From: Blastocatellia bacterium
Lineage (GTDB): Bacteria > Acidobacteriota > Blastocatellia > HR10 > J050
NCBI GenBank assembly: GCA_025054955.1
Contig: JANWZE010000068.1
Span: 1-64,000, forward strand
Direction: 5' to 3'
Length of the DNA: 64,000 bases
The notes under the pieces were generated by a model that saw only the letters and a program-made list of their open reading frames with translations, was not told where the DNA came from and did not search any database. Below are positions 35,830 to 40,488 of the stretch, one piece after another (position 1 is the stretch's first letter; each line of letters starts with the position of its first letter). Made by a program: the position numbers and the translations under genes.

Positions 35830-36579
35830 TCAAAACCTTGCTGGCTCACGATCAAAATCTTGATCTGGATCGCGATCTGGCTCAGGATCAAACTGCTTAT
35901 CAACATGAGGAGACAAAAAAGGCAGCGAAATGGACCGGTCAAATTGCACACGAAGGATCGTCCCCCTGGCTAGCCTAATGTCCTCTGCTTTTGTTAGCAA
36001 CACGCCCGCGGCCATCGCGCCAAGGATGGTAGTCCCCGCCGCCGTTGCAGCTCCTCCGCTTCCCTTACCTAACAGAATGACGGCTAATCCTCCTGCCGAA
36101 CCGATTGTGGCCCCTTTGTAGATATTCTCCACGGTGTTGCCTCCACCACGTCCCCCTCTCACAACACCTTCGCTATCACCCTTCAATTTTCGATCGCCAA
36201 CCTGATCATCAACCGCCGTGATGACAGTAGAAACTTCTTCCAATCCATACGATGTTTTCACGCGATTGAAGGTGAGCGCCAGCTCTGCACGCTTCAGTGG
36301 CCGACCAGCCGGTTTGACATGTGTGATATTTCCCAAGAACTCCGTGCCCCGTGCTAAAACCAGCCGCCCATTGATCAGTAGATCGTCATAAAGAACTGCC
36401 CGCACAGGATCACCGACTTCATTCAACCTGGTGCTTATTGGAGTTTGTAATGCTAGCCGTATTTTGACGCCCGGCTCAACGCGAGCCTGCGTTTCTGACA
36501 GTTGGTTTTCCTTCGCTTCCTGAGCAAACGCGCTCATCCCGAAGACCAAGGCGAGCGGGAGTAAGACACCATATCTCAT
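35830..36579 (-). CDS. Exported protein of unknown function with glycine-zipper segment
   Basis: About 249 residues from ATG 36579, with GGAGG upstream. A signal peptide (YGVLLPLALVFGMSAFAQ) precedes a beta-rich domain (VKIRLALQTPISTRLNEVGD, LARGTEFLGNITHVKPAGRP) resembling the pilus/TrbI-like barrel seen in many acidobacterial hypothetical proteins. A glycine- and alanine-rich segment follows (GATIGSAGGLAVILLGKGSG), compatible with a membrane-inserting zipper. The end is a repeated Asp-Pro/Arg tail (DPEPDRDPDQDFDREP). I do not recognise the function. It lies 39 bases before rlmD in the same orientation. Confidence 0.7.
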   Translation of the reverse strand: MRYGVLLPLALVFGMSAFAQEAKENQLSETQARVEPGVKIRLALQTPISTRLNEVGDPVRAVLYDDLLINGRLVLARGTEFLGNITHVKPAGRPLKRAELALTFNRVKTSYGLEEVSTVITAVDDQVGDRKLKGDSEGVVRGGRGGGNTVENIYKGATIGSAGGLAVILLGKGSGGAATAAGTTILGAMAAGVLLTKAEDIRLARGTILRVQFDRSISLPFLSPHVDKQFDPEPDRDPDQDFDREPARF

Positions 36580-36664
36580 GTTCCGAATCCTCCATAATGA
36601 AACTCTGACTCGTTGATTATATAACAAGGCACGTTAATGCCCATGAATTCAATATTAATTTCTG

Positions 36665-37843
36665 CTAATTGACTCTTAGGATGAAACATTTCAAGTAATA
36701 GCTCTCAGGCATACTCAGAAGAATGGGATGATCGCGAGCCTGCGTCCGCTTTTCTAACAACGTTAAACAACGCCCAGCATCAAAAGCAGCGCTCAGCAAG
36801 ACCTCCAGAAACATCTGCTCGCTCAGATGGTAGGAACAGCTACATGTGACCAAGATACCCCCTGGATGGAGCAATCTCATAGCTTGCCGGTTGATCTCCT
36901 TATAGCCACGAATTGCACTACCGAGCGCAGCTCGCGTCTTAGCAAATGCAGGAGGGTCCAATATGATGATGTCAAACCTCTTTGACTGATCGTAATAATC
37001 GCGCAATAGATCAAATACATTTGCCTCTACACACTCAATGTTATCGAGGCGATTAAGCAGCGCGTTTTTCTTCACGCGCTGTAGAGCCTCTCCGGCTATA
37101 TCTACTGCTTGAACGCTCTGACACTGAGAAGCGACCGTCATTGAAAAGCCACCGTCATAACAAAAACAATCCAAGCAATAGCCGCGCGCATATTTGCGAA
37201 CAGCCGCTTGATTCTCACGCTGATCGAGAAAAGCGCCGGTCTTTTGCCCTGCTATAAGATCAACCGCGAAGCTTATCCCATTGATCTGCACCACGACCTC
37301 TTCCATCAATGTGCCCCACAACACGCCTGACTGCAGCGGCAGTTCTTCCAACTGCCGAACCTTTACATCATTGCGCTCAATAATGGCACGCGGGCGCTTC
37401 CGCTCAATCAGTAAATCTATCCAAAAACTCTTGAGCCGCTCCATCCCAGGCGTCAACGTTTGTATGACGTAGTGGTCGCCGTATCGGTCAATAATCAACG
37501 ACGGCAGCATATCACTTTCCCCAAACACTAAACGATACGCCTCCGTGTTCTCAACGACCGTTCTTCTCCATGAATCGGCTGCATCAAACCGGCGGGCCCA
37601 GAAGCGGTCATTGATTCGCTCATGAGCACCGGCAATCCAGCGAAGCGCAATCAATGAATGTTGACTATAAAACCCCCAACCAAGCCTACGATCACGTTCA
37701 TCAAGAATGGCGACAATGTCTCCGTTGACGGCATCGGTCACCTTGACCAGATCGCCGGAAAATACCCATGGATGCCCGGCTCGCAATCGGGCGGCTCCCT
37801 TTCGAGAAATAATCACCCTTGCCTCGTTGCGAGTGCTCACCAC
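36665..37843 (-). CDS. rlmI: Class I SAM-dependent rRNA methyltransferase, RlmI-like (PUA domain)
   Basis: 392 residues with GTG start at 37843. An N-terminal PUA domain (RVIISRKGAARLRAGHPWVF, the usual HPWVFSG motif) is followed by an EEHEE-type linker (LIIDRYGDHYVIQTLTPGME) and the methyltransferase domain: GQKTGAFLDQRENQ, LDCFCYDGGFSMTVA (SAM loop), FDIIILDPPAFAKTR and GGILVTCSCSYHLSEQMFLE. The pattern is that of RlmI, which makes 5-methylcytosine in 23S rRNA; close relatives modify other RNAs. It is divergent from the PanC-like gene. Confidence 0.87.
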   Translation of the reverse strand: MVSTRNEARVIISRKGAARLRAGHPWVFSGDLVKVTDAVNGDIVAILDERDRRLGWGFYSQHSLIALRWIAGAHERINDRFWARRFDAADSWRRTVVENTEAYRLVFGESDMLPSLIIDRYGDHYVIQTLTPGMERLKSFWIDLLIERKRPRAIIERNDVKVRQLEELPLQSGVLWGTLMEEVVVQINGISFAVDLIAGQKTGAFLDQRENQAAVRKYARGYCLDCFCYDGGFSMTVASQCQSVQAVDIAGEALQRVKKNALLNRLDNIECVEANVFDLLRDYYDQSKRFDIIILDPPAFAKTRAALGSAIRGYKEINRQAMRLLHPGGILVTCSCSYHLSEQMFLEVLLSAAFDAGRCLTLLEKRTQARDHPILLSMPESYYLKCFILRVN

Positions 37844-37945
37844 TAGCTGTCGTGCCCATTGACTATAGGTTCACCGGCTGCCCAGCATACCCGATTTGCT
37901 CATTCGGGTCAAATACCAATCGCGTCGCATCGGCTGCGCTGCATC

Positions 37946-37974
37946 TTCCAGGCGCTTCTCTTTTTCTCTATAAT
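37946..37974 (+). promoter_or_regulatory. Sigma-70-type promoter for the PanC-like gene, leaderless start likely
   Basis: A perfect TATAAT (37969-37974) lies 8 bases before ATG 37983, with a weak -35 (TTCCAG) 17 bases upstream. The predicted mRNA start is about 2 bases from the ATG and no Shine-Dalgarno sequence is visible. Confidence 0.6.
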
Positions 37975-37982
37975 CAAGCCTC

Positions 37983-38831
37983 ATGGACGTCATCAGGAAT
38001 CCAGCACGCATGAGTCATCTGGTGTCTCGAGTACACACCCAGCGTAAACGTATCGGCTTGGTGCCAACCTGGGGAGGCCTGCATGAAGGACACCTGTCCA
38101 TGGTACGCACCATCAAAGGCCTCGTTGACGTCGTGGTGGTCTCCATCATTCCGCCCTCTCCCCATTCAGGAAGCGATCTTTTGCTCAGAGCACATCCTTC
38201 GACGCTGACCCAAGACGTTGAACTCTTGGTGCCCACAGACATTGACTACGTGTTCGCACCGAAACGACAGGATGTCATCTCGCCAACGCCCGTAACAGAA
38301 GTCGTTGTCCACGGACTCAAAGATCGCTTGTTCGGCGGCTTGCGGACACGTTTTTATACTGACGCAACGACAGAGCTGGTCATCTTGCTCAACATCACGC
38401 GTCCCGATGTCGTCAGCATGAGTCAAAAAGACCCACAACTCCTCATGATCGCTCGTCGCATTACAGCAGATTTGCATTTCTCTTGCCAAATCATGGTCAC
38501 CCCCACCGTTCGCGAGCCGGACGGCACGGCGGCCTCCTGGTGGTTGTCACGACTGTCGCCTGAGCAACGACAGGCAGCCGCCGTCATATACAAAGGATTG
38601 GAAAAAGCTCAGGTCCTCTTTGGCGCCGGCGAACGAGAAGCCCATGAGCTGATCCAGGCCATCCGAGAGGTTTACGCATCAGAAGTCTTACTCAAAACCG
38701 ATTACATTGGCATTGTGGACCCGGTCACGTTAGAACCTCTCACCACCATTGACGAAAGACCGGCCCTGGTGGCCGTTGCCGTCACCATCGGCGATGCTCA
38801 CCTCATTGACAACCTGATCATCAATGAATAG
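37983..38831 (+). CDS. Divergent pantoate-beta-alanine ligase (PanC) homologue
   Basis: 282 residues, a PanC length. The fold is recognisable from GLVPTWGGLHEGHLSMVRTI (ATP-binding His pair HxGH kept), DIDYVFAPKRQDV, SQKDPQLLMIARRI (Lys kept) and VTPTVREPDGTA. The residues that hold pantoate and ATP in true PanC are changed: the VNPxQF segment reads IPPSPHSG, the RPGHFxGVxTVV segment reads RTRFYTDATTEL, and the MSSRN motif reads ASWWL. It may have lost or changed its substrate. A typical panC is not in the window. It is divergent from rlmI with its own promoter. Confidence 0.75.
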   Translation: MDVIRNPARMSHLVSRVHTQRKRIGLVPTWGGLHEGHLSMVRTIKGLVDVVVVSIIPPSPHSGSDLLLRAHPSTLTQDVELLVPTDIDYVFAPKRQDVISPTPVTEVVVHGLKDRLFGGLRTRFYTDATTELVILLNITRPDVVSMSQKDPQLLMIARRITADLHFSCQIMVTPTVREPDGTAASWWLSRLSPEQRQAAAVIYKGLEKAQVLFGAGEREAHELIQAIREVYASEVLLKTDYIGIVDPVTLEPLTTIDERPALVAVAVTIGDAHLIDNLIINE

Positions 38832-39447: not shown

Positions 39448-40488
39448 CTAGGGATTTGGCTTTTTCAATTCCGGTTTCTCTCGTGGTTCTTGGCCTTTGT
39501 CATCGCTCGGTTGCCCTGAATCAGTTGGCCGACGCCGCTTCAACGTCGGAGGGCCTGTTTCTCCAGGTCGCCCTTCAGCATCAAGCTTGCGCGCCTGGCC
39601 TTGCAAACGAGCCAAGCGATCCTTGATCCGATTAAACTCCCACGAGCTAATCACGTACTCATCACGCTCAGGAAAACGAACGATGAGATCCCTGACTGCC
39701 TTAATTCGATCCCCTTCAAATGGGTGAGTCATAAACAGCTTGGAGAATGCATTGGGTTGCTTCTTGCGCTTGGCTTCCAGTTTCTCAAACATCGTAATAA
39801 GGCCATTGGGATCGTATCCGGCCGCCCAGGAATACTGAGCGCCTAACATGTCTGCTTCATTCTCAGCATTTCGGCTGAATTTGAAAAAGGCCAGCGGTAG
39901 TCCAAAACTGGCGCCCAATTGACCGAGCATCCCAACCCCACCACCGACAAAGATCAATGGGACAGTAGCAGCCCACGAAAGCAACTGCGACTTGGTGAAA
40001 TTTTCCAAAGCATGACGCGCCACCACATGCGAAATCTCGTGAGCCATAACACCAGCCAACTCCGCTTCGTTTTCCGCCGCCAGGATTAATCCCGTGTTGA
40101 CATAGAAGAAACCACCGGGCAATGCAAAAGCGTTGATCTCATCAGACACAACCACCTTGATCGTGAAGGGCATCTGTGCATCCGAGTGCAACACGATGTT
40201 CTGACCAATTCGATTGATATACTCTACAATAATTGGGTCGTCCACCAGCTTCAGTTGCTGGTCAACGGTTGCAGCTAATTGCCGTCCGAGGGCAATTTCT
40301 TTGTCAATCGAATAAAAATTTAACTGTCCTTTGTTGATGTTGCGCTTGCCAATCAATAATGGATTTTCTTTGTCAGAAAGCGGCTTTGAGCTAGCCGTCT
40401 TATCTTGAGAGAAGATCGGCGATGGCGCCATGACCATAGACGCTGTCAGTACCGCTGAAAGGATCACCTGTGATACCCGGCTTATCAT
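39448..40488 (-). CDS. M48-family periplasmic metalloprotease, BepA/YfgC-like
   Basis: 346 residues. A signal peptide (VSQVILSAVLTASMVMAPSP) is followed by the M48 domain: FALPGGFFYVNTGLI, zinc motif VMAHEISHVVARH, and the third ligand in NAENEADMLGAQYSWAAGYD. The tail is proline/lysine-rich and acidic-basic (about 45 residues), with no TPR repeats as in E. coli BepA. It probably degrades or helps fold outer-membrane proteins such as LptD. ATG 40488 is preceded by AGGAG, and a TATAAT lies on the minus strand at 40525-40530. Confidence 0.9.
   Translation of the reverse strand: MISRVSQVILSAVLTASMVMAPSPIFSQDKTASSKPLSDKENPLLIGKRNINKGQLNFYSIDKEIALGRQLAATVDQQLKLVDDPIIVEYINRIGQNIVLHSDAQMPFTIKVVVSDEINAFALPGGFFYVNTGLILAAENEAELAGVMAHEISHVVARHALENFTKSQLLSWAATVPLIFVGGGVGMLGQLGASFGLPLAFFKFSRNAENEADMLGAQYSWAAGYDPNGLITMFEKLEAKRKKQPNAFSKLFMTHPFEGDRIKAVRDLIVRFPERDEYVISSWEFNRIKDRLARLQGQARKLDAEGRPGETGPPTLKRRRPTDSGQPSDDKGQEPREKPELKKPNP

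Follow-up and report, generated by a model that had tools for sequence, protein, structure and literature searches.

The window, a 64,000-nucleotide stretch from the genome of a Blastocatellia bacterium, carries a gene of the pantothenate synthetase (PanC) family (37983..38831, +) whose product is in all probability functional yet not a maker of pantothenate. Our tentative preference is for a repurposed PanC that may bind a nucleotide without catalysis and be kept for another role. The reading frame starts with ATG and encodes 282 amino acids with no internal stop, and the sole Pfam match of its product is PF02569 (Pantoate_ligase): at 191.9 bits, against a curated score of 20.7 bits, residues 3-279 align with positions 2-268 of the 268 in the profile, in keeping with the first-pass annotation, which had called the gene full-length. 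In the PDB the protein matches 21 distinct sequences at E <= 0.001, labelled pantothenate synthetases or pantoate-beta-alanine ligases. With the TIGR00018 model for PanC equivalogs it scores 173.8 bits, below the cut-off of 212.75 bits, and in our trees it falls inside the native PanC clade of its class.

Compared with working PanC (residue numbers are those of the tuberculosis enzyme, transferred by motif and spacing), the window protein retains His44, Gly46, His47, Arg132, Lys160, Asp161 and Ser196 and has lost Met40, Asn69, Gln72, Tyr82, His135, Phe157, Gly158, Gln164, Ser197 and Arg198. The HxGH motif (HEGH, residues 34-37; 38082..38093, +) and the Lys-Asp pair (residues 149-150) are both in place, as had first been observed, and with them the ATP-binding combination of HxGH and Lys160 (residues 34, 37 and 149); the pair lies in a stretch, residues 147-153 (38421..38441, +), from which the equivalents of Gly158 and Gln164 are gone. 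The replacement of VNPxQF, RPGHFxGVxTVV and MSSRN reported in the first-pass annotation also holds: the NPxQF stretch (residues 56-63; 38148..38171, +) has lost the equivalents of Asn69 and Gln72, while the alignment and the residue table document the replacement of the RPGHF stretch (residues 121-132; 38343..38378, +), whose first Arg is retained, and of MSSRN, which is now ASWWL (residues 184-188; 38532..38546, +). Thus Pro58, His61 and Leu153 stand in place of the pantoate-site residues Asn69, Gln72 and Gln164, and Trp186 and Trp187 in place of the ATP-phosphate residues Ser197 and Arg198. This is more than ordinary variation, since the lost residues are near-invariant in panB-bearing relatives: all are identical in 32/32 PanC copies except His135, which is conserved in 31 of the 32 (the residue table includes G003c, which an earlier conservation list omitted). 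A structure prediction from an alignment of two sequences, the window protein and L032, gave a mean pLDDT of 41 and was set aside, and our statements on the pocket come from the alignment.

In the accessible text of a mutational study of the M. tuberculosis enzyme (PMC5772511), alanine at His44, His47, Asn69, Gln72 or Lys160 costs PanC about 1000-fold in activity, ATP affinity drops in H47A and K160A and not in N69A, Q72A or Q164A, and Lys160 and Arg198 touch the ATP phosphates. Applied to the residues lost and kept, these data imply that the adenosine side of the site is largely retained and that the pantoate and phosphate side is gone. We picture a native PanC of the class that would have been freed from pantothenate synthesis and retained for a different role; the kept half-site (PT, HxGH and KD) may, though this is less sure, still bind an adenine nucleotide, and the protein could work through its core and C-terminal domain in a non-catalytic capacity, whether as sensor, scaffold or partner. 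That the protein is still a pantothenate synthetase, fed by pantoate from outside the cell or serving as an extra copy, would agree with its family membership and with the retention of most of the active site in several copies of family f8, but seems very improbable, since residues with the 1000-fold alanine cost (PMC5772511, accessible text) are missing from it and its genome has a canonical copy as well.

This canonical panC (381 bits) adjoins panB on contig C152 of the window's own genome (G000), and its product is 40% identical to the window protein, whose own gene does not adjoin panB. With the canonical pair elsewhere in the genome, the window gene is unnecessary for explaining pantothenate synthesis, and the earlier suggestion that this pathway might be run differently here finds no support. 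That suggestion had come with a proposal to look for canonical panB, panC and panD: the first two are present, and panD (PF02261) found no match in the genome. PanD is likewise missing from 43 of the 58 relatives, some of them with panB and panC, and the beta-alanine of PanD-lacking relatives is probably supplied by another route.

The order to which the window belongs is represented by ten genomes (G000-G009). Of the 58 relatives searched, 57 have a PanC match and one (G054) has none. An altered copy, 280-290 amino acids long and stop-free, occurs in 10/10 of the order genomes, and a canonical copy accompanies it in six. This coexistence, along with the homodimeric state of M. tuberculosis PanC (PMC5772511, accessible text), would suit a regulatory partner that joins canonical PanC in a mixed oligomer; such a role is improbable, however, considering that four genomes (G004, G005, G006 and G007) have the altered copy with no panB match and no intact canonical panC. 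In G004 and G007 the canonical gene persists only as fragments, 81-84% identical to the panC of G008 (L046:4381-4587 and L045:4777-5034, respectively), and the altered copy there is intact. Elsewhere among the relatives, family f6 (g16, g26) has second copies that are less altered, and the panB-less members of f8 and f4 have single PanC copies with altered sites. A wider search of genome contigs added a single locus, whose Oscillospiraceae PanC is mostly canonical in its motifs.

Within the order, none of the ten altered copies has Asn69, Gln72, Ser197 or Arg198 and all ten have HxGH, Lys160 and Asp161; the Arg198 position is occupied by E in six, W in two, and G and D in one each. The gate loop is 22% identical among the order copies and the SSRN site 30%, as against 66-81% in canonical groups, and the C-terminal domain is 52-53% identical as against 44-52% (subsets of 6/10 order, 7/10 f8, 8 f5 and 9 other canonical copies, with near-duplicates avoided). 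These values bear on the main rival reading, suggested also in the first-pass annotation, that the protein ligates other substrates, adenylating some carboxylic acid other than pantoate and joining it to an amine. The universal HxGH, Lys160 and Asp161 of the order copies and the purifying selection described below would be expected of such an enzyme, and in family f3 the replaced loops are similar among relatives, which is compatible with a specific new substrate. However, Ser197 and Arg198, the ATP-phosphate-contacting residues, are gone from 10/10 order copies, Lys160 is gone from 7/10 f8 copies, and the replaced loops, which a specific new substrate should fix, differ within the window gene's own family. 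The lost phosphate residues and variable loops together make a non-catalytic role, with nucleotide binding, somewhat more likely than a changed ligase, and we consider the latter rather unlikely, if far from negligible. The picture is not uniform across the class: f8 copies retain Asn69 (8/10), Gln72 (9/10) and Arg198 (9/10), and f6 copies retain Lys160, Ser197 and Arg198 (5/5) with Gln72 gone in 4/5 and Arg132 in 5/5. The many canonical residues kept here weaken the case for a function shared by the whole class, and some of these copies may still act on pantoate. What all 27 altered or panB-less copies retain is HxGH and Arg177.

The altered copies are, as judged from pairwise comparisons of their codons, under purifying selection. 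The nearest relative of the window gene is only 51% identical to it, so that dN/dS is not measurable for the gene itself and selection was gauged among relatives. Across 13 pairwise comparisons among altered or panB-less copies, none of which includes the window gene, dN/dS is 0.053-0.131 (0.087-0.131 in the order's six pairs), and in 6 canonical PanC pairs it is 0.042-0.081, several of the dS values being above 1 and saturated. The combination of lost catalytic-site residues with purifying selection among relatives may point to a pseudoenzyme, yet HxGH and Lys160 are retained. A functionless, decaying gene might be suspected from the lost active-site residues and from a long end branch (0.68 in the 60-row tree, 0.59 in a tree with extra outgroups), but this is hardly credible given the ten stop-free order copies of near-constant length, their low dN/dS and a conserved TATAAT; moreover, the genuinely decayed panC of the same family is fragmentary.

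The TATAAT in question is a perfect -10 element (37969..37974, +) that ends 8 bases upstream of the ATG, preceded over a spacer of 18 by a weak -35-like hexamer, CTTCCA (37945..37950, +; 3/6 matches). A perfect TATAAT occurs in 10/10 order copies, ending 8-30 bases upstream of the ATG, with -35-like hexamers of 3-5 matches, which in the other nine are TTTCCA or TTGAxx at spacers of 15-17; the transcript may accordingly be nearly leaderless in several of these copies. Elsewhere a TATAAT within 40 nt upstream is rare: 1 of 50 other PanC rows has one (one row extends only 8 nt upstream), as do 3 of the 151 remaining long ORFs at the order loci. The strong promoter claimed in the first-pass annotation is therefore borne out in its -10 element and not in its -35, which at best matches in three positions, and the site went unreported in a generic promoter scan. 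The further claim that the gene seems to be in use fares better, in view of the purifying selection among relatives, the retention in 10/10 order genomes and the conserved promoter-like site. The three other ORFs with a TATAAT (L035:993-2132, L037:12772-13893 and L039:6097-7260) are all homologues of the M48 peptidase gene that lies close to the altered PanC.

With respect to descent, the PanC lineage of the window gene is, by its position in the trees, native to its class. Sixty PanC rows were used for the first tree, where a clade of 50 rows (100/99) unites the altered copies from f1, f2, f3 and f6 with the single PanC of f4-f9 and excludes the canonical PanC of genomes that have two copies. 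The PanC of G028, G038, G039, G044, G047 and G051 and the canonical copies of G024 and G045 are not in the alignment or trees, G049 is outside the PanC trees, its PanC being split across two contigs, and L002, a repeat of the window, was dropped. Adding 20 rows from other classes leaves the 50-row clade in place with its support lowered to 82/93, and pairs the altered copies of the order with the f8 copies as sister groups (99/89). The panB tree, which carries a long-branch flag from the program, agrees with this placement: 22 rows make up its native clade (99/90), and the panB of f1, f2, f3 and the two-copy f6 genomes lies outside. Most simply, native panB would have been lost, pantothenate synthesis would have been regained in some lineages through panB and panC of outside descent, and native panC would have remained.

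Retention of PanC without panB is a feature of the whole class. Among its genomes at least 90% complete, PanC occurs in 103/104 and panB, at a score over the cut-off, in 90; the 14 without panB have a full-length PanC in 12 cases, a partial one in G334 and none in G364. Elsewhere in the phylum (sample totals minus 37 class members), panB is missing from 57/260 genomes, of which only one (G113) has PanC over the cut-off; another panB-less genome there, G164, has one PanC match, below the cut-off. Related genomes are non-independent in these counts, and panB was probably lost on three to four separate occasions. Perhaps PanC throughout the class also serves a second function, independent of pantothenate, which predates the losses of pantothenate synthesis, a proposal to which we give slightly less than even credence. 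If it is true, the native gene would survive the loss of panB or takeover by a foreign panB-panC pair, and mainly its pantoate half would erode. The canonical residues kept in f8 and f6 count against this proposal, and the weaker clade support with more outgroups and the case of G113, which lies outside the class, count against the reading of the window gene as a repurposed native PanC. CoaX (in 6) or CoaA over the cut-off (in 8) is found in 14 of the 16 panB-less relatives with PanC, G025 and G037 having neither, so that most could use imported pantothenate, a further argument against continued synthesis by the altered protein. CoaX is present in 46 of the 58 relatives. In eight f8 genomes (G018, G022, G026, G030, G033, G043, G046 and G052) CoaA (TIGR00554) is over the cut-off and CoaX unmatched, a swap of pantothenate kinase that accompanies panB loss in that family.

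PanC is usually regarded as a single-purpose vitamin enzyme and drug target. The window protein is like PanC (PF02569, TIGR00018) in belonging to the same family over its full length, in retaining HxGH and Lys-Asp and in its 40% identity to the canonical copy of its own genome, but unlike it in having neither the pantoate nor the ATP-phosphate residues, in scoring below the equivalog cut-off and in lying away from panB. The titles and abstract openings of the PanC literature covered, which leaves most subscription journals outside, describe no altered, retained PanC. The accessible text of PMC6594144 groups the cysteine ligase MshC with PanC as relatives of class I synthetases. MshC illustrates that a fold of this kind is able to link a different acid and a different amine, but it belongs to a family other than that of the window protein. 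HisZ is a relative of histidyl-tRNA synthetase kept as a non-catalytic regulatory subunit; like the window protein on the favoured reading, it is a relative of an adenylate-forming enzyme retained without its reaction, but its fold and pathway are unrelated to those of PanC. A class that keeps PanC after abandoning its reaction would point to a hidden second function, whose needs the retained HxGH and C-terminal domain may mark. Annotation at the family level would count the altered genes as pantothenate synthetases, and auxotrophs could be called prototrophs.

Neighbourhood clustering of 32 loci and Pfam searches of ten neighbours revealed no gene that accompanies the altered copies in every lineage. 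At the f1, f2 and f8 loci of G001, G002, G003, G014, G026, G030 and G037, folK is followed by panC with panB absent between them. A folate link, considered because folK lies immediately upstream of the altered PanC in G001-G003 and of the panB-less f8 copies in G014, G026, G030 and G037, was given up as a general explanation: the adjacency is inherited, since folK-panB-panC is the gene order at the nine f5 and f9 loci whose flanks are long enough, and FolK (PF01288) has no match in the window's own genome, which is rated 99.5% complete. FolK is present in 52 of the 58 relatives. A methyltransferase gene, presumably RlmI-like (36665..37843, -), lies beside the PanC-family gene in divergent orientation in f1 (3 genomes), f2 (1) and f8 (G026 and G052) and appears to be part of the old locus, as would be expected from its sharing, with folK, at the f1, f2 and f8 loci. 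The downstream neighbour (39448..40488, -) is an M48 peptidase family gene, 72% identical to the L033 homologue, which matches PF01435; in 7 order loci such a gene lies 0.6-2.3 kb from the altered copy. Finally, the hypothetical protein encoded at 35830-36627 (-), which has no Pfam match at 1e-5, is 58-59% identical to the products of same-place genes in G001 and G002.
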